This document shows positions 7,566 through 21,334 of a stretch of DNA of 64,000 nt, piece after piece. How positions within the stretch are numbered: position 1 is the first letter of the stretch; every line of letters starts with the position of its first letter. The stretch lies in assembly GCF_025813715.1 (NCBI RefSeq), contig NZ_CP107532.1, forward strand, positions 2,232,001-2,296,000, given 5' to 3'. The position numbers and the translations under genes are program-made. Origin of the DNA: Methylobacterium sp. FF17. GTDB taxonomy: Bacteria; Pseudomonadota; Alphaproteobacteria; Rhizobiales; Beijerinckiaceae. Under the pieces are notes generated by a model. That model searched no databases and was not told where the DNA came from. It saw nothing but the letters and a program-made list of their open reading frames with translations.

Positions 7566-8723
7566 CTAAGGTCTGGGCTTTACCCTGAGCGTGATCCGCG
7601 TCAGTTCGGATGGCGGCCCGAGCCTCAGGGCGAAGCCCGGCCACAGCCCCGTGCCGTTGTTGACGTAGAGCGTCATGCCACCGACCGCGTAGGCGCCCGA
7701 GACGAAGCCGTTGTTCGCCCGCGCGACCAGCCGGTCCAGGCCCACGATCATCCCCCCATGGGTGTGACCGGACAGTTGGAGCGCCACGCCCTTCGCGGCC
7801 GCCCTGCCCGCATCCCTCGGCTGATGGTCCAGGAGAACGATGGGCGCGCCCGGCGGCGAGCCCGCCAGCGCCGCGTCGAGGTCGTGGGGCGGCTGGCCGG
7901 AATGCGAGGCCGACAGGTCGGTCACGCCCGCCAGGACCAGGCCGCCGCCGCCGCGCCTGAGAACCGTATGCCGGTTCTCAAGCACCTCCATCCCCAGCTC
8001 GGCATAGTGGCGCATCCACGCCGCGTATTCGAAGAAATATTCGTGGTTGCCGGGGATCACCCAAACCCCGTCCGCAGCGTGGAGATCACGCAGCGGCTCG
8101 ACGTCCGCGCGACGCGAAGCGAGTGAACCGTCGATCAGGTCCCCGGTGACCACGACGAGGTCGGCACCGAGTTGGTTGGATCGCGCCACGACCTCGCGCG
8201 CCCATCCCGCTGAAAACAAGCGGCTGAGATGCAGATCCGTCAGCTGGAGAAGGGTGTAGCCGTCGAACCCGGTCGGGAGGTTTTCGATCTCGACGGTGAC
8301 ATCCTTGAGGGGCGGCACCCGTACGGCTTGCTGGACCGCCACCGCAGACAAGACCAGCGCCGCGGCGGCCTCCGCGTAGCGCAATTCCGCAGGGATCGCC
8401 CACCCACCGCCGGGCAAAAGCCTGGAGGCCAAGGCCACGACGTCGAAGGCCAAATGCATCGCCGCAACGAGGAAGATGGCACCGAAGGCCCAGTTGAACA
8501 GCACGATCAACGCACGCGGGAATTCCGGCGCGAAGACCGAGCCGGACGAGAGGCGGCTCCACAGGTGGTATTGCGACGCGATCAGCAGGAGGATGGCGAC
8601 GGCGGCCTTCAGCGCCAGCGGCCACGGAAGCGGCCACAGCACCCGGGCGATGACGTACAGGCAGGGTAGACCGAAGATCAGGTGGAACATGCGTCCGTTT
8701 CGGCGACGGTGGACCATTGGCAC
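7566..8723 (-). CDS. Membrane-anchored metallophosphoesterase (YaeI-like)
   Basis: The C-terminal two thirds is a calcineurin-like phosphoesterase with all metal-binding blocks in order: [22 protein letters not shown] and SGHTHGG. Residues 10-150 contain about four hydrophobic segments, so the enzyme is anchored in the inner membrane. This layout matches the YaeI/UDP-diacylglucosamine-diphosphatase-like branch, whose members hydrolyse phosphodiester or pyrophosphate bonds; the substrate here is unknown. The 385-residue length is usual. The annotated start is at 8723; an in-frame ATG at 8690 (MFHLIFGLP) would also leave the first hydrophobic segment whole. It is transcribed divergently from the CorA gene. 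Confidence 0.85.
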
Positions 8724-9085
8724 GAAGCCGATCCGGCATTCGGATCGGCCAAGGCAGTATCACCGGCCGCCTTCCAGGGGAGGCGTTGATCCGCTTCCCA
8801 AACGTCGTCAGGTGCTTCCGAGCACATCCGCCTCCACGGTTAAGGGATGCCAGCCGTACTTGGAGCAAGTGCGGACAACGCTTCTCCCGATCGCGAACCC
8901 CGTGGAGTGGTGAATGACCAACCGTCGACCCGGCCTGTCCGACGAGGGATCTGTCCACTGGACGAGGGCGTTACGATGCCGCCAAGCTGGACCTTGGCCG
9001 GGGTCGCCCACTCGGCCGAACGGAGCGCATACGGATGCCGACCTCATCGATCCCGGTCGCACAGCCCCATAGGCCGGGAGTCGTG
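8724..9085. other. Divergent intergenic region (phosphoesterase / CorA)
   Basis: This region should carry both outward-facing promoters. Several short frames cross it, but none has a ribosome site or protein-like composition. I see no repeat or hairpin worth naming. Confidence 0.35.
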
Positions 9086-10042
9086 ATGTCGGCAGCCTAT
9101 GCCAACGGCCAGCGTGTCGCCGACGTGCCGATCGACGAAGCCGGTGGATGGGCGCGCCGTCCCGGACACCTCGTCTGGATCGGCCTGTACGAACCGTCCG
9201 CCGAACTGCTCGGCGACATCCAGGCCCAGTTCGGCTTGCATCCGCTCGCCATCGAGGATGCCCGGGCGGCGCACCAGAGGCCAAAGCTCGAACGCTATGG
9301 CGATTGCCTGTTCGTGGTTGCCCGTACCGCGCAGCGCGTGGACGGTCGCATCACGCTCGGCGAAACGCATCTGTTCGTCGGACGCGGCTTCGTGGTCACC
9401 GTTCGCCACGGTGCCTCCGTGTCGTACGCCCCCGTGCGCGAGAAGACCGAAGCCTGTCCCGACCTCCTCGCACATGGCGAGGACTACATCCTGCACGCTG
9501 TGCTCGACTTCATCGTCGACAACTACGGTCCCGTCATGGAGACCGTCCTTTCCGAAGTCGAGGCCATCGAGGACTGCATTCTCAAGCGAGAGCTTCGACC
9601 GGACGAGGTCGAGCGGCTCTACCTGCTGCGGCGCGACCTCTTGAGATTGCGAACGGCCGTCGTCCCGCTCGTCGAGGTCTGCCGCAAGCTGGAGCACGGC
9701 GACATGGTCGCGATCGACGAGGAGATGCAGCCTCTGTTCCGTGACGTCTCGGATCACCTGCTACGCGTCCAGGACGAAATCGATGCCATGCGTGAGGTCC
9801 TCGCCTTCGCCTTCGAGGCGAGCGTGATGCTGGGCCAGGCCCAGCAAACCGTCATCACCCGTCGCCTCGCCGCATGGGCGGCCATCCTCGCGGTCCCGAC
9901 GGCCATCGCGGGCATCTACGGGATGAACTTCGAGGTGATGCCGGAACTCAAGTGGCGCTACGGTTACTTCATCGTGCTTGCAGGCATCTTCACCGCCTGC
10001 GCCGTTCTGTACTGGCGCTTCCGCAAGAACGGCTGGCTCTGA
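9086..10042 (+). CDS. corA: CorA-family divalent cation transporter
   Basis: CorA proteins are pentameric inner-membrane channels for Mg2+ and sometimes Co2+, Ni2+ or Zn2+. The start at 9086 (MSAAYANGQRVADVP) has GGGAG five bases ahead; the frame extends upstream to 9035 without better support. A long cytoplasmic alpha/beta and helical funnel (residues 1-255) is followed by the two C-terminal membrane helices. The first ends in the signature YGMNF, the GMN selectivity loop, and the second carries a basic tail (WRFRKNGWL). The usual acidic loop after GMN reads EVMPELKWRYG. The gene stands alone. Confidence 0.9.
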   Translation: MSAAYANGQRVADVPIDEAGGWARRPGHLVWIGLYEPSAELLGDIQAQFGLHPLAIEDARAAHQRPKLERYGDCLFVVARTAQRVDGRITLGETHLFVGRGFVVTVRHGASVSYAPVREKTEACPDLLAHGEDYILHAVLDFIVDNYGPVMETVLSEVEAIEDCILKRELRPDEVERLYLLRRDLLRLRTAVVPLVEVCRKLEHGDMVAIDEEMQPLFRDVSDHLLRVQDEIDAMREVLAFAFEASVMLGQAQQTVITRRLAAWAAILAVPTAIAGIYGMNFEVMPELKWRYGYFIVLAGIFTACAVLYWRFRKNGWL

Positions 10043-10399
10043 ACGGCCTCGGGCCACCGCAGGAGGCAGGCCACAGGGACGATGTCCGCCATGAGGATCC
10101 TATCGGCTTGGACAGCGGACCTGCCATTTCGGTGTTCGCGAGTGCCCCGATCCGGTCGGTGAACCCGACATCCTGGATTCTACAGCGCGCCACCTCCGTG
10201 ACGAGTGGCCGATCGAAGCCTGCAAGGTCGATTTGAACGCGCTGCCGGGCGATCCCGATCAACGGCTGAATCTATAAATAGGAATATAAACATATTGTGG
10301 CGCGATGCTCGTTCAGTTCGCCGCAGATGGCATCGAACTTGCTGACGTGCTTTCCAGGTTCTCGTGAGCTGCTCACATGACGATCGTGGGGCCATCAGT
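10043..10399. other. Intergenic region upstream of gntR operon
   Basis: This gap of about 357 bases holds no supported gene. A short AT-rich stretch near 10270-10295 (ATAAATAGGAATATAAACAT) stands out against the GC-rich surroundings and is the likely promoter or operator of the GntR-led operon. Confidence 0.4.
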
Positions 10400-11164
10400 A
10401 TGTTGAACGCGCTTGAGGACGAACCCGTCCTGTTGAAGTCCAATGTTCTGGCCGTGCCGCCTTCGACGCTTCGGGCCAATCAGGCCTACGATCTGATGCG
10501 CCGCGCGATCGTTTCCTGCCGGATCCTGCCCGGCACGCGGTTCACCGAAGCCGAAGTCATGGAGCGCTACGAACTCGGCAAGGCAAGTTGTCGGATCGCG
10601 CTGCAGCGCCTCATTCAAGAAGGCTTCGTCATATCGATACCGCGTCAGGGTTATCGCGTTGCGCCTGTCACCGTACGAGATGTCGATGAGGTCTTTGCTC
10701 TTCGCGTCGTGCTCGAGCCGCTCGCCGCGCGCGCTGCAACGGGCCGAGTGAACCGGGCTCACCTTGAGCGACTCGAGCGAGCTTGCCGCGACCGCGTCGT
10801 GGTGGATGTCGGCAATCAGATCGATTTCTTTCTCGAAGCAAACCGTAGCTTCCACATGGCGATCGCCGTGGCTGCCGGAAACCAGCGACTGTGCCGGACG
10901 CTCTCCGGTCTCCTCGACGAGATGACGCGTCTCGTTGCCCTCGGCTTCGGCGTGCAACAGGTGCGGCCCAATATCGAGAACGACCATACCCAGATCATCG
11001 ACTGTCTCGTCGCGGGCGATGCGGACGGCGCCGAATTGGTCGCGCGCCGTCATGTCGAGACGTTCCGCGAGATGACGATGCAGAAGGTTGTTCAAAGCTT
11101 GCGCGACACCGCTGCCCTCGTCCCCGTCGGTGCGAAGTCACGGACGGATGGTGGTATCGCATGA
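10400..11164 (+). CDS. GntR/FadR-family (FCD) transcriptional regulator
   Basis: An N-terminal winged helix (about residues 25-85, with YDLMRRAIVSCRILPG and RIALQRLIQEGFV) is joined to an all-helical FCD ligand-binding domain (95-225). Such regulators respond to an acid or related metabolite of the operon they control. The wing reads PRQGYRVAPVT, normal for the family. I prefer the ATG at 10400 (MLNALEDEP); the frame opens at 10364. The stop overlaps the ABC ATPase start as ATGA, so the regulator is the first gene of the operon and probably controls it. The inducer would be the transported substrate or its first product. Confidence 0.88.
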   Translation: MLNALEDEPVLLKSNVLAVPPSTLRANQAYDLMRRAIVSCRILPGTRFTEAEVMERYELGKASCRIALQRLIQEGFVISIPRQGYRVAPVTVRDVDEVFALRVVLEPLAARAATGRVNRAHLERLERACRDRVVVDVGNQIDFFLEANRSFHMAIAVAAGNQRLCRTLSGLLDEMTRLVALGFGVQQVRPNIENDHTQIIDCLVAGDADGAELVARRHVETFREMTMQKVVQSLRDTAALVPVGAKSRTDGGIA

Positions 11165-11931
11165 ACACCGTCGAAGTTAAGTGCGTCAGCAAATGGTTCG
11201 ACCGGCGCGACGGCGACCAGCTTGAAGTCCTGCGCAAGATCGACTTTGACGTCCCTTCGCAGGCGATTGTCGCGCTACTGGGCGCGTCGGGCTGCGGCAA
11301 GAGTACGCTTCTCAATATCATTGCGGGCCTGATCAAGCCGGACCGGGGAGCCATTCTCCTCGACGGTGTTTCTTCCGCCGACTTTCGTAATTGGCGCTCG
11401 ATGACGTACATGTTCCAGGAAGACAGGCTGCTGCCCTGGCGAACCGCGGCTCAGAATGTCGCCTTCGGGTTGGAAGCCGAGAGCCTCCCACAAGCCGAAC
11501 GTCGACGCCGTGCGTGCGAGACGCTGTCGTTGGTCGGGCTCGAGGGCTTCGAGGACGTGTATCCGCACGAACTGTCGGGCGGCATGCGCAGCCGCGTTGC
11601 GCTTGCGCGCAGCCTCGTCACGGAACCGACGATCCTCCTGATGGATGAGCCATTCTCCAAGCTCGATCCGTCCATTCGCGCGCAGATGCATGCCGAAGTG
11701 CTGCGCCTCGCTGCTCTGAGGAAGATGACGGTGATCTTCGTCACGCACGACGTGGAGGAAGCAATCGTACTCGCCGACTATGTTGTTGTGCTCCATCCGA
11801 GACCCGGCCGCGTTGGTGAGACGCGTCGGATCGAGTTGCCATACCCCCGTGATCCGCTGTCCGCGGACGTTGCCGAGGAGGTGCGCAACCTGCGCCTGAG
11901 CCTCGCTGGCGCGAGGCCCGTCCCATGCTGA
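11161..11931 (+). CDS. ABC transporter ATP-binding protein (SsuB/TauB-like)
   Basis: This 256-residue ATPase powers the importer made with the next two genes. The Walker A motif GASGCGKST is at residues 41-49, followed by a Q-loop (MFQEDRLLPW), signature LSGGM near 138, Walker B LLMDEP near 160, and the switch HDVEEA. The family is the nitrate/sulfonate/taurine group, where the Q-loop phrase QEDRLLPW is characteristic. It starts in the gntR stop codon (ATGA) and its own end overlaps the permease start by seven bases, so the three genes are tightly coupled. Confidence 0.92.
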   Translation: MNTVEVKCVSKWFDRRDGDQLEVLRKIDFDVPSQAIVALLGASGCGKSTLLNIIAGLIKPDRGAILLDGVSSADFRNWRSMTYMFQEDRLLPWRTAAQNVAFGLEAESLPQAERRRRACETLSLVGLEGFEDVYPHELSGGMRSRVALARSLVTEPTILLMDEPFSKLDPSIRAQMHAEVLRLAALRKMTVIFVTHDVEEAIVLADYVVVLHPRPGRVGETRRIELPYPRDPLSADVAEEVRNLRLSLAGARPVPC

Positions 11932-12743
11932 CGCAGACGCCTCAATCCCTGCGCCTCAGCTCAAGGCGGACTCAGATCCGTTGGCGGCAGATGCGTACCG
12001 TCCTCATGCGCGTCGGACTGCTCGCCGGTGCGCTGGCGGCATGGCAAATCGCCTCGCTCCAGGCCCCGAGCTTCGTTCTCCCGAGTCCTGCTCGCGTCTG
12101 GAGCGCCTGGACGACACTTGTGTCTTCCGCGAGCTTCTCGACTGATCTCGGGATTACGTTTGGCCGCATATCCGCTGGCTTTCTCCTGGCCGCCCTCGTC
12201 GGGCTCCCTCTTGGCCTTGCGCTCGGCGCGAGCCGGACGCTCGGAGAGTTCTTCGAGCCAGTCCTGACGGTCGTTAATACGGTTTCATCCACGATCTGGG
12301 CAATATTTGCGCTGATCTGGTTCGGTCTGTCGAACTGGACTACGATCTTCGTGGTGTTCATGACTGCTATGCCGCTGATCCTGACCAACGTTTGGCAGGG
12401 CACACGCACGGTCAACACAGAATTCCTTGAGCTTGCTCGCACGTTCCGGATGCCTCGCCGCAAGGTGCTTCTCAAAATCTACTTGCCGACGATCTTGCCG
12501 CTTTTTTTCTCCGGAGCACGCCTTGCCTTCGGCTTCGGGGCCCGCGTCAGCCTCGTCGCCGAGTCTTTGGGAGCGAGCAGCGGCATCGGCTACCGCCTTC
12601 GCCAAGCGGCTGATCTTGTCCAGACCGATCAGGTCTTCGCCTGGACGCTCACGCTGGTCACCCTGATGATCGGCCTCGAAGCTCTGGTGCTGAAGCCCCT
12701 GGAACGGCGTCTCTTCGCCTGGAAGCGGGCGACAGAGACCTGA
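11925..12743 (+). CDS. ABC transporter permease (SsuC/TauC-like)
   Basis: A 272-residue inner-membrane permease with about six helices. The coupling loop facing the ATPase is clear: TEFLELARTFRMPRRKVLLK followed by the YLPTILP turn, the EAA-type motif of BPD_transp_1 proteins. The region ESLGASSGIGYRL before the last helices is typical of sulfonate/taurine permeases. The start overlaps the ATPase gene. Together they would form a homodimeric permease with two ATPases, fed by the binding protein encoded next. Confidence 0.92.
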   Translation: MLTQTPQSLRLSSRRTQIRWRQMRTVLMRVGLLAGALAAWQIASLQAPSFVLPSPARVWSAWTTLVSSASFSTDLGITFGRISAGFLLAALVGLPLGLALGASRTLGEFFEPVLTVVNTVSSTIWAIFALIWFGLSNWTTIFVVFMTAMPLILTNVWQGTRTVNTEFLELARTFRMPRRKVLLKIYLPTILPLFFSGARLAFGFGARVSLVAESLGASSGIGYRLRQAADLVQTDQVFAWTLTLVTLMIGLEALVLKPLERRLFAWKRATET

Positions 12744-12797
12744 CCACCTTTGCTGGTTGAAATCCCCCAACTGCAGTCTGAAGATAGGATAACAGCC

Positions 12798-13781
12798 ATG
12801 TCGAAACGGTTCAGTCTGTTCATCTCGGCCGTTACATGGATCGTCGCTGGGACATATGCCGCGCAGGCTGAGACGGTTCGGATCGGTTATTGGAGTTCTG
12901 GCGTAAGCCTCGGGTTTGGAGCCGTGCTTGAGGCCGGAAAATTCATGGAGAAGGAGGGACTCACCGTTGAGTACCTCAAGTTCCCTGATGTGAACGCCCC
13001 GACCAAGGCCATGGCCGCCGGTGCCATCGACTTTGCAATCGGTGCAAGTGCGGGAACGGCCTTCAGCGTCGCATCCGATGGGCTACCACTCAGCATCATA
13101 CTCTCGACGCAGGTGGCGGATCTCGACTTTGTCGTCCCCGAGGCCTCGCCGATCCGGACGATGTCCGACCTCAAGGGCAAGAAGATCGGGACATCTCCGG
13201 CGGGCAGCGCCACCGCTGCGATTACCTCTGCGATCTTGGAGAAAAACTACGGCTTCAAGCCCTCGCATTATGAGGGTGTGCCCGGCAACGATCCGCGATT
13301 GGCCCAATTCCTTGTACAGAAGGATATCGATGCGGCTGCACTTCGCACCGTAACGCTGGCGCTCCTGCCAGATGTCAAGCTGCGCAAGCTCGCCTCGTTT
13401 CGCACTGAGTGGAAGACGCTCACTCAGCAGGATGCTCCACCCGTCCTGGGTGTAGGCCTCATGCGTAATGACTGGCTCAAAGCCAATCCTGCCGGTGCGG
13501 CCAAGGTCGTCGTCGGTATGCGCAAGGCCTACGAGTTCGGCAAAGCCGACAAGGCGGCGGTGGCTAAGGCCCTGATGAGCTCGGCCAATCTCAGCGAAGC
13601 CGATGCCAAAGCCTACGCAGCACTTTGGGACAACATCTATACCGTCAGCATGGAGCCGGCTGATCTCGCCTCCCTGCGCAACGAATTTGCCGTCTTCAAG
13701 GCCGTCGGTGTCGTCAAGGGCGAACTGCCCGAGACAGCGCTGATGACGGGCCCCTACGAGGCATCGAAGGCGATGAAGTAG
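12798..13781 (+). CDS. ABC transporter substrate-binding protein (NMT1/SsuA-like)
   Basis: The protein has a signal peptide (residues 1-24, cut after AAQA) and the fold of the NMT1/SsuA group: ETVRIGYWSSGVSLGFGAV, the AAGAIDFAIGAS hinge, then MSDLKGKKIGTSPAG. Members bind sulfonates, taurine, thiamine precursors or aromatic acids in the periplasm; the ligand cannot be read from the sequence. Start choice rests on the signal peptide and on AGGA about eight bases ahead. It follows the permease by 54 bases and precedes catabolic genes, so the ligand is presumably their substrate. Confidence 0.9.
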   Translation: MSKRFSLFISAVTWIVAGTYAAQAETVRIGYWSSGVSLGFGAVLEAGKFMEKEGLTVEYLKFPDVNAPTKAMAAGAIDFAIGASAGTAFSVASDGLPLSIILSTQVADLDFVVPEASPIRTMSDLKGKKIGTSPAGSATAAITSAILEKNYGFKPSHYEGVPGNDPRLAQFLVQKDIDAAALRTVTLALLPDVKLRKLASFRTEWKTLTQQDAPPVLGVGLMRNDWLKANPAGAAKVVVGMRKAYEFGKADKAAVAKALMSSANLSEADAKAYAALWDNIYTVSMEPADLASLRNEFAVFKAVGVVKGELPETALMTGPYEASKAMK

Positions 13782-13831
13782 GCCGCATCGGCTGGCCAAC
13801 CCCCTCCCACTTTCACAAGCGGAAGAGAACC

Positions 13832-14848
13832 ATGTCTGAGACCATGAAAGCCCTCGTTCTGGAGCAGCACGGCGAGGTCGGCGACCTGAAGGTCGTCCAC
13901 GACTATCCCAAACCCAAAGCAGGTCCCGGCGAGGCGGTGATCCGCGTCGGTGCGTCCTCCTTCAACTACCACGATGTCTTCACCGTGAAGGGCATGCCCG
14001 GCATCAAGGTGCCGTTCCCCGTCGTCATCGGGCTCGACATGGCCGGGCAAATCGTCGAGCTCGGCGCCGGCGTCGATCGCTGGCAAATCGGCGACCGGGT
14101 GCTCGTGAACCCGCTCAACAAGGCCAAGGGCCTGATGGGCGAGATGATGGACGGCGGCATGGCCGAGTATTGCCGCGTCTCGGTCGACCAGCTTATCGCG
14201 ATGCCGCCGGACGTGAGCTATGCGGACGCTGCGTCGCTGCCCGTCGCCTATGGCACGGCGCACCGGATGCTGATCACGCACAAGACGGTCAAGGCCGGCG
14301 ACCGGGTGCTGATCCTCGGCGCCAGCGGCGGCGTCGGCACCGGCTGTGTGATGCTCGCCAAGCAACTGGGCGCTGAGGTCATCGCCTGCGCAGGCAGTGC
14401 CGACAAGATGGCGCGCCTGAAGGAACTCGGCGCCGACCATGTCGTCAACTATCGGGATACGGACTTCTCGAAATGGGCGATTCAGACCTACGGCAAGCCT
14501 CAACGCCGAACCTATGAGGGCGGCGTGGACGTGGTGATCAACTTCACCGGTGGCGACACCTGGGTGCCCTCGTTGAAGTGCCTGAAGCGGGGCGGGACCT
14601 TGCTGGTCTGCGGCGCCACCGCCGGCCACGATCCCAAGGAGGACCTGCGCTACATCTGGAGCTTCGAGCTGAAGGTGATCGGCTCCAACAGCTTCTACGA
14701 CGACGATCTCTCGGCGCTCATGGACATGATCCAAGCCGGCACCCTCAAGCCCGTCGTCGACAAGGTGCTCACACTCGAAGAGGCCGCCGAGGGCCTTCGC
14801 ATGATCCAGGACCGTGAGGTCATGGGTAAGATCGTCGTCGCTCCGTAG
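13832..14848 (+). CDS. MDR-family (zinc-type alcohol dehydrogenase-like) oxidoreductase
   Basis: A medium-chain reductase of 338 residues. The GroES-like half includes VIGLDMAGQIVELGAGV and GDRVLVNP; the Rossmann half has GASGGVGTG for NAD(P)H and INFTGGDTWVPSL. The C-terminal phrase DPKEDLRYIWSFELKVIGS resembles the MDR subgroup that includes acryloyl- or crotonyl-CoA reductases and quinone oxidoreductases. The usual catalytic zinc ligands are not evident, which suggests double-bond reduction instead of alcohol oxidation. GGAAGAG lies ahead of the ATG. Its place between the transporter and CoA-related genes implies reduction of a pathway intermediate. Confidence 0.85.
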   Translation: MSETMKALVLEQHGEVGDLKVVHDYPKPKAGPGEAVIRVGASSFNYHDVFTVKGMPGIKVPFPVVIGLDMAGQIVELGAGVDRWQIGDRVLVNPLNKAKGLMGEMMDGGMAEYCRVSVDQLIAMPPDVSYADAASLPVAYGTAHRMLITHKTVKAGDRVLILGASGGVGTGCVMLAKQLGAEVIACAGSADKMARLKELGADHVVNYRDTDFSKWAIQTYGKPQRRTYEGGVDVVINFTGGDTWVPSLKCLKRGGTLLVCGATAGHDPKEDLRYIWSFELKVIGSNSFYDDDLSALMDMIQAGTLKPVVDKVLTLEEAAEGLRMIQDREVMGKIVVAP

Positions 14849-14863
14849 GGCTCAGAAAGCATC

Positions 14864-15286
14864 ATGTCAGAATCATCACTCGATAAAGATCAAGTCGAAG
14901 CACTGCTGCTGCGCGGCCCTTTCCACCAATGGCTCGGCCTGAGCGTCGTTGCCGTCGGTGAAGGCACGATTGAGCTTGGTGCAACCTGGAGACCCGAATG
15001 GGTCGTCAACGCCGAGCGCGGCTACACGCATGGCGGCATTCTCGCGACGCTTGTCGACTTAACGGCCGATTGGGCGCTTGTGTCGAAGACTGGTCGCGGC
15101 GTGCCAACAGTGGACCTGCGCGTCGATTATCACCGCGCGGCCATGCAGGGAAATCTGCGCTGCCTCGGGAAGGTCGTGAAGTTCGGTGGCCAGATCTCGG
15201 TTGCCGAGGCTCAGATTCTCGATGAGGAAGGCCGCCTGCTCGCCAGCGGGCGCGGCGTCTATATGACGGCCCCGCCCAAGCCATGA
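14864..15286 (+). CDS. PaaI-type hotdog-fold thioesterase
   Basis: A 140-residue hotdog protein with the family signature YTHGGILATLVDLTADWA and a second block TVDLRVDYHRAAMQGNL. PaaI enzymes hydrolyse acyl-CoA thioesters, often to free CoA trapped in dead-end intermediates. It may remove products made by the acyl-CoA synthetase encoded two genes downstream. It begins 15 bases after the MDR gene and its stop overlaps the next start as ATGA. Cytoplasmic; no signal peptide. Confidence 0.88.
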   Translation: MSESSLDKDQVEALLLRGPFHQWLGLSVVAVGEGTIELGATWRPEWVVNAERGYTHGGILATLVDLTADWALVSKTGRGVPTVDLRVDYHRAAMQGNLRCLGKVVKFGGQISVAEAQILDEEGRLLASGRGVYMTAPPKP

Positions 15287-16092
15287 AAAACGCTGTGAGC
15301 CGGTCCACCTTCGGCGGCTTGGACCACGTCGTCATCAACACGATGCGGGATATGGATGCGGCCGCGGTCGCCTTCACGATCTTGGGGTTCCGGCTCACAC
15401 CGCGCGGGCATCACTCCCTTGGTTCCATCAACCATTTGATGATGACGCCAGGACCTTATCTTGAGCTTGTCGGAGTTCCACCCGAAGGGTTGCAGCGCCA
15501 GGACGTCGTAGACTCGCCCTTCGGTCTGAACGGTCTCGTCATAGCCTGCGCGGATGCGGATGCGACCTTCGCCAGCTTAGAACAAACCGGCCTCCCCGTT
15601 GAGCCACCGGTCGCGTTCTCCCGGCCGGTGACTTTCTCTGGCCAGACCGAAGTGGCTGAGTTCCGTACGGTGCGGTTCCCGGCTGCGTGCTTTCCGGCGG
15701 GGCGTATCTACCACTGCGAGCACCTGACGCCCGATCTCATCTGGCGTCCGGAATGGCAGGTGCATCCGAATGGGTTTTGCCGGATCAGCAAGCTGGTCGT
15801 CACCAGCCCGGACCCGGCGATGGATGTCGATCGCTACGCCGCGGCCTGCAACGCCGTCGCGCATCAGGATCGGGAGGGATGGTTCGTCCCCCTCGGCGAC
15901 TTTCGCCTGGACGTCGTTCCCGGGCCGGTCGCACGCTTCATGGAGCTCGACCTCCTCTTCGGCACCCTGGATGAGATCGAGCGACGCGCCGTAGCCATGC
16001 CGAACGTGGTCTGGGTTCGACAGGCAGCGACCTGCGCGACGCTGAGGCTCGCCGAATTCAATCTGTCACTTACCTGCCGGAGTCCCAGATGA
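15283..16092 (+). CDS. VOC-superfamily protein (glyoxalase-like domain)
   Basis: This 269-residue protein opens with GGLDHVVINTMRDMDAAA and a block NHLMMTPGPYLELVGVP, which is the glyoxalase-like (PF13468-type) start of a vicinal oxygen chelate fold. A second module follows from about residue 135. VOC proteins use a metal to open rings, isomerise or epimerise; racemases of acyl-CoA and ring-cleaving dioxygenases are members. The reaction here is unknown. The metal ligands are probably the early His in LDHVV and Glu in LELVG. It shares ATGA overlaps with both neighbours. Confidence 0.8.
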   Translation: MKNAVSRSTFGGLDHVVINTMRDMDAAAVAFTILGFRLTPRGHHSLGSINHLMMTPGPYLELVGVPPEGLQRQDVVDSPFGLNGLVIACADADATFASLEQTGLPVEPPVAFSRPVTFSGQTEVAEFRTVRFPAACFPAGRIYHCEHLTPDLIWRPEWQVHPNGFCRISKLVVTSPDPAMDVDRYAAACNAVAHQDREGWFVPLGDFRLDVVPGPVARFMELDLLFGTLDEIERRAVAMPNVVWVRQAATCATLRLAEFNLSLTCRSPR

Positions 16093-17615
16093 GCGGCGCC
16101 TCAACCACGATCGACAATCTGGGCGCCCTTGTCGATCGTCGCGGCGATCCGGATCGCCCCGTCTTCGTCGGCTTTGGACCCGACGAAGCCGAAGTGGTCC
16201 TGACCCGCGCTGACCTCGACGCAACGGCCGATGCCTTCGCTCGCGGCCTGCTGCGCGGCGGCTTGGTGCGAGGCGACCGTATCGCCATCCTGGCGACCAA
16301 CCATCCGAAAACCATCGCTTTGCTGCTTGGAGCGATGCGGGCGGGGCTCATCCCAACGCCGATCAACCACAAGTTCCCGGTATCGACCGTCACGCAGGTG
16401 ATTGCCGACTGTGGTGCACGCCTCGTGGTCTGTGATGCCGCCCAGTACCTGCGGCTTCCAACCGGCCTCGCCGCAACCATCCGCATTGCGGTGTTCGACC
16501 GCGAGGGGGCGGATGGGCTCGACGCTTGGCTTGATCCCGGTCCGTTCGAGGCGATCCGCCCAGCGGACGACGAGGCGGCGCTCTGCCTCTATACCTCGGG
16601 ATCGACCGGTCGCCCGAAGGGCGTGATGCTGGGTCACGCCGCTCATCTCTGGGTCGTGCGTACCCGGAGGGATGAAGCGGAGTTGCGGAGTGAGCGTCTG
16701 CTCATCGCCGCCCCGCTCTACCACATGAACGCGCTCGCCTTGGCGCTGCTCGTCTGTGCCAGCGGATCGAGTGCGGTGCTGTTGCCGCAGTTCGAGGCTC
16801 GCCGCTACATCGCGGCGATCGAGCGTTACGGCTGCACGTGGCTCACGGCCGTACCGCCGATGATGGCGATGATGCTGCGTGAGAAAGACGCTCTCGCCCA
16901 AGCCGACCTGTCGAGCGTGAGAACCGTGCGCATGGGGTCGGCACCGGTCAGCGACGCGCTCGCGGCCGAAATGCGGATGCTCCTCCCCAATGCGCGCATC
17001 ATCAACGCATACGGTACGACGGAGGGAGGGCCGATCGTCTTCACCGACGATCCTTCCTTCGGAGTGATCCCGCCGGGCTCTGTCGGCCGTCCGCACCCAG
17101 AAGTTCCCATCCGGCTCGTTGGTCCGGACGCGCCCGACCTCGGCGAGCTGCAGTTGAAAAGCCCGGCCATCATGCTGGGTTATCTCAACCGACCGGACAC
17201 CCCCTCTCCGATCACACCGGACGGATACTACAGGACCGGTGATATATTTCGCTGCGACGCGGAGCGGTTCTATACCTTTGTCGGTCGCGCCGATGACATG
17301 TTCGTCTCAGGGGGCGAGAACATCTTCCCCGGCGAGGTGGAGACCGTCATCGAGACCCATCCGGATGTTCTTCAGGCCTGTGTCGTGCCGGTGGCGGACG
17401 TGATCAAAGGGACCAAGCCTGTCGCTTACGTCGTGCGTCGACCCGGTGCTACGGTCACAGAGTCCGAAATCAAGCAACACGTGCTTGCCAATGCGCCAGC
17501 CTATCAACATCCGCGCCACGTCTGGTTCCTCGACACCATGCTGCTGGCTGCCAGCAACAAGATCGACCGTAACGCCTTGCGAGCCCGCGCCGAGATGGAG
17601 CTCGAAGCCCGATGA
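16089..17615 (+). CDS. AMP-dependent acyl-CoA synthetase/ligase
   Basis: A 508-residue adenylate-forming enzyme that would activate a carboxylic acid to its CoA thioester with ATP. Motifs appear in order: P-loop [30 protein letters not shown], and the catalytic-lysine end [10 protein letters not shown]. The size suits the medium/long-chain or aryl-acid ligases. The substrate pocket cannot be assigned by eye. It overlaps both neighbours by ATGA. Within the operon it is the likely entry step after uptake, with the thioesterase and MDR protein acting on CoA-linked intermediates. Confidence 0.9.
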
Positions 17616-18682
17616 GCCGCCTGACACCAGCGGATCGTGCCTGGGTTTCCCAAGCGATCCGGCGGATCGAGGCCGATATCAATCGGTCGGCCGACACCCA
17701 CCTGATCCGCCTCGCGCTGCCGCGTGTGCCGGGAATAGAGCTTTATCTGAAAGACGAGTCGAGTCACCCGACCGGTAGTCTCAAGCATCGCCTCGCTCGG
17801 TCGTTGTTCCTCTATGCCCTGTGCAACGGTTGGATTGGACCACGGACCACGATTGTCGAGTCCTCGAGCGGGTCGACGGCGATCTCAGAAGCCTACTTCG
17901 CCCGATTGCTGGGTCTGCGCTTCGTTGCCGTCATGCCTCGCTCAACATCGGCCGAGAAGGTTGCGGCGATCGCTTTTCACGGTGGCGAGGCGCACCTTGT
18001 CGATGGCGGCAACGTGAGTGAGACAGCGTGCCGGCTCGCCCGTGAACTCGATGGGCACTACATGGATCAATTCACCTTCGCCGAGCGCGCGACAGACTGG
18101 CGTGGCAACAACAACATTGCCGAATCGATCTTTACACAGATGTCTCATGAGCAGGAACCAGTACCAGTCTGGGTCGTCTGCGGCGCCGGCACCGGTGGGA
18201 CCTCAGCAACGATCGGCCGCTACATTCGTTACCGTCAGTTCGCAACACAACTCTGTGTCGCTGATCCACAGGGCTCCGTGTTTCACCGTCATTTTGCTGA
18301 TAGGCAGGTCCGCGCAGTTGATCTGTGCGGAAGCGTCATAGAAGGTATTGGCCGACGGGAGGTGGAGCCTTCCTTTATGCCCGAACTGATCGACCGCATG
18401 ATCGCAGTGCCAGATGTTGCCAGCATTGCAGCAGCTCGACTCGCGAGCAGCCTGCTCGGTCGCCCTTGTGGTGGATCGACGGGGACAAGTCTTTGGGCAT
18501 GTCTTGAACTTATCGAGGAGATGCGTGCATCAGGCGCCCGCGGCTCCATCGTCACTCTGTTGTGCGATTCCGGCGAGCGTTACCGTTCGACGCTCTTCAA
18601 TGATGACTGGCTGAGTCAACGCGGCATCGACCTTTCTCCCGCGCGTGAGCGCCTGCAAACGACGTTCGGCTGCTCGGCCTGA
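17612..18682 (+). CDS. PLP-dependent cysteine desulfhydrase (Cds1-like)
   Basis: The protein belongs to the fold-type II PLP enzymes and closely resembles Cds1-type L-cysteine desulfhydrases, which split cysteine into pyruvate, H2S and ammonia. Visible features are NRSADTHL near residue 24, the PLP lysine at about 58 in [11 protein letters not shown], the substrate loop SSSGST (85-90), MPRSTS, and the phosphate cradle GAGTGGTS (191-198). The 356-residue length is usual. A cysteine-synthase-like activity is the main alternative. It is fused to the operon by an ATGA overlap and suggests that the pathway releases a cysteine-like or beta-substituted alanine intermediate. Confidence 0.85.
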
Positions 18683-18720
18683 CCATTTTCACACTGCTCT
18701 CGTCGGAGGGAACCCATTTC

Positions 18721-20340
18721 GTGACGCCGTTCAACTGGACCACCGGCTATCCCTCCGTGCGGATGCCGATCTTCGGCCGCAACATGGTCTCGACCTCGCA
18801 CGCGCTCGCGGCCCAGGCCGGTATCCGCATGCTCTGGCAGGGGGGCAACGCGGTGGATGCCGCCATCGCCACGGCGGCGGCCAAGACCATCACCGAGCCC
18901 TGCAGCAACGGGTTGGGCTCGGATGCCTTCTGCATCCTCTGGGACGGCAAGGAACTGCACGGCCTCAACGCCTCGGGTGGCGCCCCGGCGGCCTGGACCC
19001 CCGACTACTTCCGCGCCAAGTACGGTGCGGCCGCGCGGCCGCCCATGCGGGGCTGGGATTCCGTCACGGTGCCGGGCGCCGTCGCCGCCTGGGTCGCGTT
19101 GAGCGAGCGCTTCGGAAAACTGCCCTTCGCCGACCTGCTGCAGCCCGCCATCGAAATCGCCGAGCGCGGCTACCTTGCACCGGTGGTGGTGCAGCAGAAA
19201 TGGGCGGCTGCCGCGAAGGTCGCCGACCTCGTCCGCCAGCCCGGCTTCGCCGAGACCTTCCTGCCCCACGGGCGTGCGCCCCACGTGGGCGAGCGCGTCA
19301 CCCTGCCGGGCATCGCCCGCGCCCTGCGGGCGATCGGGGAGACGAAGGGGCGCGCCTTCTACGAGGGCGAGATCGCCGAGGCCATGGCGCGCCACGCCGC
19401 CGCCCATGGCGGCGCGATGACGGTGGCGGACCTCGCCGCCTTCCGGCCCGAATGGGTGACCCCCACGGCCAAGGACTATCGCGGCTACACCCTGCACGAG
19501 ATCCCGCCGAACGGGCAGGGCATCGCCGCCCAGATCGCCCTCGGCATCCTCGAGAGCTTCGATCTTGCCGGCCTGCCCGTCGACGGCCCGGAGGCGCAGC
19601 ACCTCCAGATCGAGGCGATGAAGCTCGCCTTCGCCGACACCTACCGCTACGTCGCCGACGCGCGCACCATGGCGGTGACCCCGGAGGCGATGCTCGACCC
19701 GGGCTATCTCGCGACACGCGCCAGGCTGATCGACCCCCGCCGGGCGCAGGATTTCGGCGCCGGCAACCCGGTGCGCGGCGGCACCGTCTACCTCACCGCG
19801 GCCGACGAATCCGGTATGATGGTGAGCTTCATCCAGTCGAACTTCATGGGCTTCGGCTCGGGCGTGGTGGTGCCCGAATGGGGCCTATCCCTGCAGAACC
19901 GCGGCTACGGCTTCGTGCTGGACGAGGCCAGCCCCAACGTCGTGGCGCCGGGCAAGCGCCCGTTCCACACCATCATCCCGGGCTTCCTCACGCAGGGCGG
20001 CGCCCCGGTGATGAGCTTCGGCGTGATGGGCGGCAACATGCAGCCGCAGGGGCACATGCAGACCCTGGTGCGGATGATCGACCACGGCCAGAACCCGCAG
20101 GCCGCCTGCGACGCGCCGCGCTGGCGCTTCAATGCCGGCCTGGAGATCAACGCCGAGGCGACCATGCCGGCGGCGACCCTCCAGGGGCTGAAGGACCGGG
20201 GCCACCGGGTCGACGTGATCGAGGACAGCTACCAGGATTTCGGCGCCGGCCAGTTCATCTGGCGGATGGGCGATCCCGCAACCGAGGGCTACGTCGGCGC
20301 CAGCGATCCCCGCCGCGACGGGCAGGTGTCGGTGTGGTGA
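18721..20340 (+). CDS. ggt: Gamma-glutamyltransferase family protein
   Basis: An Ntn-hydrolase of 539 residues that cleaves gamma-glutamyl bonds, for example of glutathione or its conjugates. The auto-processing nucleophile is Thr355 in VRGGTVYLTAADESG, followed by SNFMGFGSGVVVP. HTIIPGF and MGGNMQPQGH are the family blocks downstream. The start is GTG with GGAGGG ten bases ahead. No signal peptide is seen, so unlike E. coli Ggt it appears cytoplasmic. It begins 38 bases after the cysteine desulfhydrase gene, but its GC content and codon use look richer than those of the preceding operon, so it may be a separately acquired member. Confidence 0.9.
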   Translation: MTPFNWTTGYPSVRMPIFGRNMVSTSHALAAQAGIRMLWQGGNAVDAAIATAAAKTITEPCSNGLGSDAFCILWDGKELHGLNASGGAPAAWTPDYFRAKYGAAARPPMRGWDSVTVPGAVAAWVALSERFGKLPFADLLQPAIEIAERGYLAPVVVQQKWAAAAKVADLVRQPGFAETFLPHGRAPHVGERVTLPGIARALRAIGETKGRAFYEGEIAEAMARHAAAHGGAMTVADLAAFRPEWVTPTAKDYRGYTLHEIPPNGQGIAAQIALGILESFDLAGLPVDGPEAQHLQIEAMKLAFADTYRYVADARTMAVTPEAMLDPGYLATRARLIDPRRAQDFGAGNPVRGGTVYLTAADESGMMVSFIQSNFMGFGSGVVVPEWGLSLQNRGYGFVLDEASPNVVAPGKRPFHTIIPGFLTQGGAPVMSFGVMGGNMQPQGHMQTLVRMIDHGQNPQAACDAPRWRFNAGLEINAEATMPAATLQGLKDRGHRVDVIEDSYQDFGAGQFIWRMGDPATEGYVGASDPRRDGQVSVW

Positions 20341-20686
20341 AGAGGGCTTGTCGATCCGGGTGAGCCGTCGAACCCCATCGGCTTTGTCGATCACCCGGTC
20401 GCGCGCAGGGGAGCACCTGCGCGCCGCTACGCTCGCAGCTGGGCTCGAGGCGGCCGGCGGATGTCGGTCTCAGAATTCGAGCCGAGGTCAGAGTCGGGGG
20501 GGCAACTTATTGTGTATCGTTATCTGTAAATCAAAACACCACAATCTAATCAGTATTTGAAGCCTATCGGTGGCCGTGAGCGGCGATTCCTTCAGTTTAG
20601 ATGCGGAAATTTACCCTCATCGTCCGCTTAGAAAGCGGTCCTCGTTTCGCAAGTCCTGCGCTGTCAGCCCGATGGGACAGTCGATT
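20341..20686. other. Convergent intergenic region (ggt / tadE-like)
   Basis: No gene is supported. An AT-rich patch lies near 20510-20570. A near-perfect hairpin (GTCCGCTT at 20622-20629 with AAGCGGTC at 20633-20640, one mismatch) sits about 45 bases beyond the stop of the minus-strand TadE-like gene and might end its transcript. Confidence 0.35.
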
Positions 20687-21334
20687 TCACCGCACCGGGC
20701 AGGACGCTCCGTTCGCGATGACGATTTCCGGGCTCTGGCTGGCGAAGCGCCGACCGTAACGGATCGGCCACAAGGTCTTTCGGGACATGGTGAACCCCGC
20801 GGATCCGTTCGGCAGGAACGCCGATCCCGTCACCGGCTTATAGGTGGCGGAAACCTCGACAAGGAGGAGACGGGTCCCTTTCACCTGCAAGCTGTCGGCA
20901 GCGTCGACCGGCGCGAGGGAGCCGGGCATTCGGATCGGTGATCTGGGGGCCGCCGCACTCGAGCAGATCTGCAACGGACCCATCTGCGCGTCGCCCACGA
21001 CACCCACCGCGCTCACCGTCATCTTGATCGTGGTGCTGTCGAAGGGCAGCATCACCATCGGAGCCATCTTGAAGATGTCGCTGACCTCCAACGCGGTCGG
21101 CGCGTTACGCTGCGAGAACGTGTCCCCCAAGGTCCGGGACAGCAGATCGATCTTCCGGGCCTGACGCATGGCCGTGGCCAGTTCCACGGTTCCAAAATAC
21201 AGCAGCAGCAGGATCGGGGCGATCAGGGCGAATTCGAGAACGGCGACGCCGTCCTCGGCCCGCTGGAAGCGAGCGCAGCCTCGCCATCCTGCGGAATCGC
21301 GCCTCGAACGTACTCTGGGAAAAGCGCCGATCAT
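20687..21334 (-). CDS. TadE/TadG-like pilus assembly protein
   Basis: One membrane anchor follows a short cytoplasmic leader: AEDGVAVLEFALIAPILLLL is the TadE signature, with the conserved Glu five residues into the hydrophobic part that prepilin peptidases recognise. The remaining 150 residues are an extracytoplasmic domain with two cysteines (ICSSA and ASCPVR). TadE pseudopilins help assemble Flp/Tad pili used for surface attachment. The gene begins four bases after the stop of a second TadE-like gene, so they are co-transcribed. No tadA or flp gene is in the window. Confidence 0.82.
   Translation of the reverse strand: MIGAFPRVRSRRDSAGWRGCARFQRAEDGVAVLEFALIAPILLLLYFGTVELATAMRQARKIDLLSRTLGDTFSQRNAPTALEVSDIFKMAPMVMLPFDSTTIKMTVSAVGVVGDAQMGPLQICSSAAAPRSPIRMPGSLAPVDAADSLQVKGTRLLLVEVSATYKPVTGSAFLPNGSAGFTMSRKTLWPIRYGRRFASQSPEIVIANGASCPVR

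Follow-up and report, generated by a model that had tools for sequence, protein, structure and literature searches.

What does a bacterium gain from an operon that joins an importer and a set of acyl-coenzyme A (CoA) enzymes to a cysteine desulfhydrase and a protein of the gamma-glutamyltransferase (GGT) family? Such a set of ten genes, all on the plus strand, occupies positions 10400-20340 of a 64,000-nucleotide stretch of the genome of Methylobacterium sp. FF17 (the whole stretch is referred to below as the window). We consider it close to certain that the ten genes represent a real operon shared with other genomes, that is, one conserved and probably auto-regulated catabolic unit, which probably imports and breaks down an acid. 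Eight of the genes constitute a fixed core, in the order GntR-ATPase-permease-substrate-binding protein (SBP)-MDR-hotdog-VOC-CoA ligase, and the last two, encoding Cds1-like and GGT-like proteins, an optional tail. The features are as follows:

10364..10376, no strand assigned: palindrome GTGAGCTGCTCAC, candidate operator, exact site, separated by 23 bp from the GntR start adopted here
10400..11164, plus strand: GntR/FCD transcriptional regulator (PF07729, 85.4 bits; PF00392, 39.0 bits)
11161..11931, plus strand: ATP-binding cassette (ABC) importer ATPase, NitT/TauT/Ssu superfamily (PF00005, 114.1 bits)
11925..12743, plus strand: ABC importer permease (PF00528, 77.6 bits)
12798..13781, plus strand: periplasmic SBP, NMT1/THI5/SsuA-like (PF09084, 60.1 bits)
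13832..14848, plus strand: zinc-type MDR oxidoreductase, quinone reductase/enoyl-CoA reductase-like (PF00107, PF08240)
14864..15286, plus strand: hotdog acyl-CoA thioesterase, PaaI-like (TIGR00369, 88.6 bits; cut-off, 36.6)
15283..16092, plus strand: two-domain VOC protein (PF13468, Glyoxalase_3)
16089..17615, plus strand: class I adenylate-forming acyl-CoA ligase (PF00501, 241.4 bits; PF13193, 58.6 bits)
17612..18682, plus strand: Cds1-like pyridoxal phosphate (PLP) cysteine desulfhydrase, optional tail (NF052478, 538.3 bits)
18721..20340, plus strand: GGT-family N-terminal nucleophile (Ntn) amidohydrolase of the QNRG type, optional tail (PF01019, 484.6 bits)

The spacing of the genes and the conservation of their order both support a single compact operon of the catabolic type. 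The junctions measure, in gene order, -4, -7, 54, 50, 15, -4, -4, -4 and 38 bases, five of the nine thus being overlaps (four of 4 bases and one of 7 bases), with the GntR start chosen at ATG 10400, in an open frame that starts at GTG 10364, inside the palindrome, and the binding-protein start at ATG 12798. The initial annotation of this DNA had described a co-directional, overlapping gene run, which is confirmed here, and the Pfam and NCBIfam scans agree with all the gene families it had named. A scan of positions 10000-20700 yielded two terminator-like sites against 6.2 expected in shuffled sequences, both intragenic (in the permease and VOC genes). Neither the nine junctions nor the sequence downstream of the last gene, as far as 20700, contain such a site, which leaves the transcript end without a candidate.

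The eight-gene order recurs with such fidelity that it must be more than a chance arrangement: it is identical in 24 of 25 distinct core loci (distributed over 24 genomes and including the window's), the exception being Aquabacter (L034), without the hotdog gene in place. The hosts, which presumably include methylotrophs, comprise Methylobacterium, Methylopila, Xanthobacter, Aquabacter and Caballeronia, among others; two of the loci are from Burkholderiales, namely, Caballeronia L079 and genome G470, the latter placed solely by its likeness to L079. Three pairs of duplicates were merged (L036 with L086, L037 with L054 and L042 with L061), and in G616 (L087; completeness 88%) several genes are broken, which looks like an assembly error. 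Searches with the VOC protein retrieved 20 loci from named genomes, 11 of them at least 54% identical over the best segment; 103 of 249 genomes of the order sample at E 1e-10, mostly distant relatives; 23 of 398 genomes of the phylum sample at E 1e-20; and, at E 1e-40, 10 of 13 genomes of one genus and 3 of 119 from the window's family, where identity above 50% was reached only in the window genome itself. The loci opened for inspection were 14 from the order sample, 12 from the phylum samples, five more and, from plasmids searched with the same protein, two operon loci (L078 and L079); the Methylobacterium plasmid matches H1, H3 and H4 and many distant VOC matches stand outside the count of 25. 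The hotdog protein retrieved 8 of 398 genomes of the phylum sample at E 1e-22, including loci with hotdog and no core (L075 and L076) and one where MDR and hotdog genes accompany Dpp-type genes without a VOC match (L077).

The tail is distributed in a nested manner, Cds1 being found at core loci only where GGT adjoins. Both genes follow the ligase in 10 of the 25 core loci (the window, two Xanthobacter and seven genomes of the genus to which G076 belongs), GGT alone in three (G076, G034 and G215) and neither in 12 (the second copy in the window's own genome, seven Methylobacterium, Aquabacter, G245, G470 and Caballeronia), and Cds1 without an adjacent GGT in none of the 25. Within the genus of G076, all 10 operon genomes have a GGT at least 72% identical, which in G616 is in pieces, and 7 of the 10 have Cds1; of the 3 genomes of the genus without the operon, none has either gene. 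The proposed linkage of the desulfhydrase gene with the importer and ligase thus holds for part of the set: it is strong in some lineages, with 10 linked loci and a single Cds1 clade, and broken in others, with 12 loci carrying neither gene. The lineages with broken linkage go part of the way towards the outcome that the initial annotation had itself named as refuting its proposal. Unlinked GGT genes encoding proteins of 82-85% identity occur in all six Methylobacterium genomes searched, located near what look like Obg-type and other housekeeping genes in L093-L096 and beside what look like Dpp-type genes in L091 and L092; further unlinked copies were found in G470 (63%) and G245 (54%), and one of 56% lies beside a second module in Aquabacter.

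The Cds1-like protein covers positions 1-346 of the 354-position profile NF052478, its 538.3 bits falling under the cut-off of 600, with the next family at 165.8. Its GSLKHR stretch aligns with GSVKDR of cystathionine beta-synthase and contains the GSxKxR motif, the lysine of which is presumably the PLP-binding residue. The protein shares family and a nearly full-length profile match with Mycobacterium tuberculosis Cds1 (Rv3684), but differs from it in scoring below the curated cut-off and in residing beside an importer and a CoA ligase. The mycobacterial enzyme converts cysteine to H2S and pyruvate (PMC8389258). In phylogenetic analysis, the operon-linked Cds1 (10 rows) form one branch with respect to 11 other Cds1-like proteins (support 100/97), among them a 71% identical gene product from G218, of the same genus. 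None of nine annotated records showed this operon within 4-5 kb on each side of a Cds1-like gene, and in three of the nine a Rid protein gene adjoins it. Such catabolic-looking settings would fit Cds1 in the role of a terminal cysteine sink recruited by different gene sets. On plasmid pShin-04 of Shinella sp. HZN7 (L109, 2015-5068), genes for an L-2-amino-thiazoline-4-carboxylic acid (ATC) hydrolase, an M20 hydrolase and a Cds1-like protein lie in a row, a route that would release cysteine.

The second tail protein belongs, judging by its PF01019 match and the threonine at the autoprocessing site, to the GGT superfamily of Ntn hydrolases; the threonine is that of GGTVYL, residue 355, the position from which five solved small chains align with their residue 1. 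Its identification as a canonical gamma-glutamyltransferase is not supported, given a score of 323.2 against TIGR00066 (cut-off, 357.85) and the replacement of the residues that bind gamma-glutamate. In Escherichia coli GGT, Arg114, Ser462 and Ser463 bind the glutamate carboxylate and Asn411, Gln430 and Asp433 the amino group, contacts imperfectly conserved among the E. coli, human and Bacillus licheniformis GGT (PMC6769717). In the alignment to E. coli GGT (2e0w), the operon protein has Ser, Arg, Gly, His and Thr at the positions of Arg114, Gln430, Asp433, Ser462 and Ser463, respectively, the surrounding stretches changing from DFREMAP to NASGGAP, from LNNQMDDF to LQNRGYGF and from PLSSMSP to PFHTIIP. 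The nearest solved structure is 2nlz (514.1 bits vs 172.4 for 2e0w), which, like 2i3o, is a QNRG-type GGT-like protein with the Ntn family and the small-chain threonine in common with ours, as has E. coli GGT; the 2nlz entry is named cephalosporin acylase, and we know of no test of this activity. Of 24 GGT-like sequences, all but a 31% identical relative in L060 (thus 23) have QNRG, and PFHTI of the window protein reads PFQTI in all nine sequences from the genus of G076. Inspection of the sequence by eye suggests no export signal. Because the gamma-glutamate-binding residues are replaced and 2nlz is the nearest solved relative, the enzyme most likely cleaves an amide other than gamma-glutamyl. 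HpxW, a member of the GGT superfamily that reportedly hydrolyses oxamate, offers an example of changed specificity.

Turning to the core, the MDR protein, 76-91% identical across the core loci (the broken L087 excepted), scores 190.3 against TIGR02824 (cut-off, 296.8), and the nearest solved relative of the hotdog protein is the uncharacterised 3e29 (130.9 bits). The VOC protein displays the two-domain VOC fold of the 4-hydroxyphenylpyruvate dioxygenase (HPPD) type and has no solved relative by sequence up to E 0.1. Its model resembles HPPD/hydroxymandelate synthase and Staphylococcus aureus 3p8a in fold, at 10-16% identity; unlike the HPPD iron site, which is in the C-terminal domain, the invariant His and Glu of the family lie within residues 1-163. 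The fold was set aside as a guide to the substrate, the likeness to HPPD being at the fold level only. The ligase is closest to the fatty-acyl/feruloyl-CoA synthetases 8weu and 8wev, the nearest solved types being feruloyl-, coumarate- and fatty-acyl-type.

The genes for the MDR, hotdog, VOC and ligase proteins also occur as a set of four next to Dpp-type importer genes in L061 and L062 and a DppA-type protein in L068 (some of these names being assigned by eye), NMT1- and Liv-type genes in L043, and NMT1 and UbiD in L060; in L066, the four are located on a contig that offers just 1.3 kb upstream. This recurrence with other importers suggests that the four enzymes are the likely biochemical unit, with importer and tail being swappable. 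In L034, L038, L041 and L060, genes for UbiD and for a second NMT1-type protein are clustered next to the operon or a variant of it (UbiD identified by Pfam in L034 and L060), and an Asp/Glu racemase-family gene is found in L034, L061 and L062 (by Pfam for L034 only). Furthermore, L060 carries a homogentisate-dioxygenase-like cupin (HgmA_N, 23.0; cut-off, 20.2), and L062 genes that look like a benzoyl-CoA epoxidase set, with PaaA_PaaC at 27.9, just below the cut-off of 28.5. These neighbours hint at a substrate that is unsaturated, aromatic or amino-acid-like, but do not prove it. In Aquabacter L034, a second module divergent to the operon (approximately 12463-20317) comprises ABC genes, an NMT1 SBP, UbiD, hotdog and MDR, followed by a MarR-domain frame, the Asp/Glu racemase and the GGT of 56% identity (also L097, 7788-9518).

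The regulation of the operon can be approached through the palindrome, written as GTGAGCWGCTCAC. Across 26 scanned genomes, 21 of them with the operon, there are nine exact copies in seven genomes; six are upstream of the operon GntR gene, within 50 bp in the window, G728, G729, G731 and G470 and at about 227 bp in G245, none occurs in the five genomes without the operon, and a reversed control pattern gave no exact match. A copy with some mismatches is present close upstream in 14 of 22 relatives. The upstream regions compared were those of 22 of the 24 other core loci, L055 and L087 being left out, plus the window's, 23 altogether. A 15-letter extended consensus is matched at 12 or more positions in 17 of the 23, the window's included, and within about 50 bp of the estimated GntR start in 14 of the 22 relatives. 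GntR itself is 66-79% identical in the operon loci of the alphaproteobacterial type and 57% in L067 and L079, where the palindrome is exact despite this lower identity. The palindrome is likely the operator for the operon's own regulator, a function proposed from sequence.

Phylogenetic analysis sheds some light on the history of the operon. The tree of five core proteins (24 rows, G616 left out) places the window copy as sister to Methylobacterium plus the second copy of its own genome (100/100). This second copy falls within Methylobacterium, where it joins M. gregans and M. dankookense (100/100). The GGT tree unites the window protein with the Methylobacterium GGTs that are not linked to the operon (100/98). 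The second copy (L051, C1:437200-457100; core at 8079-15231) has the eight core genes and no Cds1, with three GGT fragments some 600 bases beyond GntR that are 86-93% identical to query residues 1-43, 368-398 and 449-535. On the simplest reading, the tail would be old in the alphaproteobacterial operon, and in Methylobacterium Cds1 would have been lost and GGT moved; independent gain of the tail genes is a possible alternative. The operon seems to move between genomes, as argued by its patchy presence in the window's family and by the two unlike copies in one genome. GC content per 2 kb is 0.60-0.67 in positions 1-22000 of the window and 0.63-0.75 in 22001-64000, and a wider acquired segment around the operon is possible. 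A search with the CorA-like protein encoded to the left of the operon, run without a positive control, retrieved nothing at E 1e-60 from five genomes of the same genus, and consequently no empty insertion site could be shown.

Taken together, these data lead us to favour, tentatively and at somewhat less than even chances, an auto-regulated mobile operon in which the core takes an organic acid through a CoA ester, while the tail cleaves an amide conjugate and destroys cysteine. GntR would bind the palindrome at 10364-10376 and dissociate in response to the substrate or to a product of an early step; the ABC importer would bring in the organic acid or an amide conjugate of it. To judge from their families, the ligase would then form the CoA ester, and the MDR protein would reduce either a quinone-like product or a C=C bond adjoining the thioester; a metal-dependent step would fall to the VOC enzyme, and the hotdog thioesterase would release CoA from acyl-CoAs that are dead ends or end products. 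At loci with the tail, the GGT-fold hydrolase, acting in the cytoplasm, would split the imported conjugate at an amide or peptide-like bond, and Cds1 would convert the freed cysteine to sulfide, pyruvate and ammonia. Amide cleavage followed by cysteine removal best fits the tail because of its nested distribution and the residue changes in GGT, a passenger role being nearly as likely, and a cysteine-releasing conjugate would be compatible with it as a substrate. More specifically, and as a rather unlikely proposition in its entirety, this could be a mobile pathway of plant-associated and methylotrophic bacteria for an unsaturated or aromatic acid conjugated to cysteine, with the QNRG enzyme acting as an acyl-cysteine amidohydrolase, a dedicated Cds1 venting sulfide, and the ligase/MDR/VOC/thioesterase unit swapping importers.

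Several observations nevertheless weigh against the conjugate-degrading, auto-regulated operon. Given that the tail is absent from 12 of the 25 core loci, cysteine release is tied to the chemistry of the core only indirectly, and, with no Cds1 match at E 1e-60 in any of six Methylobacterium genomes searched, the core does not need the desulfhydrase everywhere. QNRG-type GGT genes elsewhere stand alone or adjoin Dpp importers. As for the operator, of the 21 operon genomes scanned only 6 have an exact palindrome in front of GntR, and the site is common among the operon loci, not universal, because six of the 23 upstream regions (L031, L038, L041, L053, L056 and L057) score below 12/15, by a comparison in which the shuffles preserve single-base content only. 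The best site lies 141 bp away in L051 and 227 bp away in L059, and, within the window, matches with up to two mismatches are not enriched (1 found vs 1.76 expected). Finally, three exact copies lie off the operon, in predicted genes in L100 and L101 and in L102; all three may be chance matches. The copy in L102 (G470:C12, 8313-8325) is 11 bp before the likely ATG of a gene that, judged by eye, resembles one for a binding protein of the NMT1 type; beside it are ABC-like genes and what looks, again by eye, like a frame for an acyl-CoA thioester hydrolase.

The strongest competing explanation, which we regard as a serious possibility although on balance rather doubtful, is that the substrate of the core is a free carboxylic acid, probably an aromatic or unsaturated one, broken down through ligation to CoA and reduction, with Cds1 and the GGT-like protein being passengers that serve general sulfur and peptide turnover from a common promoter. 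The dozen tail-less loci agree with this explanation, as do the UbiD genes of L034 and L060, the cupin of L060 and the epoxidase-like set of L062, the types of the nearest solved ligases and the HPPD-like VOC fold. It is less readily reconciled with the nesting of the tail, with the single operon-specific clade of Cds1 and with the genus of G076, in which GGT tracks the operon in all 10 genomes and is missing from the three others.

Breakdown of a glutathione or gamma-glutamyl S-conjugate, the pathway that the initial annotation had proposed, appears improbable. A GGT fold and a Cds1 family member are present, and 5-oxoprolinase genes lie a few kb from the core in M. radiotolerans, but the gamma-glutamate-binding stretches of E. 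coli GGT are replaced, and removal of glutamate, the supposed first step, is thereby left unsupported; moreover, GGT occurs without Cds1 in 3 of the 25 loci and neither occurs in 12. For these residue changes, we dropped it as the leading account.

Equally hard to sustain, and marginally more so, is a sulfonate (taurine-like) importer supplying sulfur assimilation. SsuA and TauA rank with the closest structural matches of the SBP (model pLDDT, 91), but all the sulfonate and taurine models listed fall far under their cut-offs: the SBP scores 85.0 against the SsuA-family model (cut-off, 163.5) and 32.8 against the taurine model (cut-off, 304.25), and the ATPase reaches the cut-off of none of the 25 NCBIfam models listed. 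The label 'sulfonate/taurine-type' given to the importer is therefore valid at the superfamily level only. Among solved chains, the SBP sequence matches at E 0.001 only a thiamin-binding protein, PqqT and THI5; it has its fold in common with SsuA, TauA, PqqT and THI5-like proteins (TM 0.68-0.77 by query length), but only 13-21% identity, and the near-equal Foldseek E-values of PqqT, SsuA and TauA made the fold indecisive as a substrate guide. Pfam detects no desulfonating oxygenase family in any of the ten genes, and TauD was noticed only beside the divergent module of L043. With no family cut-off reached and no evidence of a sulfonate found, this explanation was rejected. Salvage of a redox cofactor or precursor, for example, pyrroloquinoline quinone or a thiamin/pyrimidine fragment, is the least credible of all, since PqqT, narrowly the top Foldseek match of the SBP and a weak sequence match (E 2.5e-4), is only 18-19% identical, with E-values tied with SsuA and TauA, and a CoA ligase, a thioesterase and a desulfhydrase are unexpected in such a pathway, even if methylotrophs are among the hosts.

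The gene set was not described in the open-licence literature searched, in agreement with the earlier statement that no described pathway has these members, and the pathway looks undescribed, assembled from known parts. The operon offers a defined, testable unit, with a candidate operator, natural variants with and without the tail in named hosts, and a genome that has two copies. Assignment of the substrate would at once name functions for a PF13468 VOC clade, the QNRG type of GGT and the operon-borne Cds1, and would reveal the point at which these bacteria release the sulfur of cysteine; in the meantime, 'GGT' and 'sulfonate ABC' labels are unfit as evidence of substrate.

Two additional sets of neighbouring genes deserve mention. 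On plasmid pMRAD01 of M. radiotolerans (L078, 13563-17373), a few kb downstream of the core, are genes for PxpB and PxpA, the 5-oxoprolinase subunits, a carboxyltransferase-family protein and a Zn-dependent hydrolase. In L070 and L072, relatives of the VOC gene lie beside Dpp-type genes and genes for a luciferase-like monooxygenase and a CMD-domain protein (identified by Pfam for L072).

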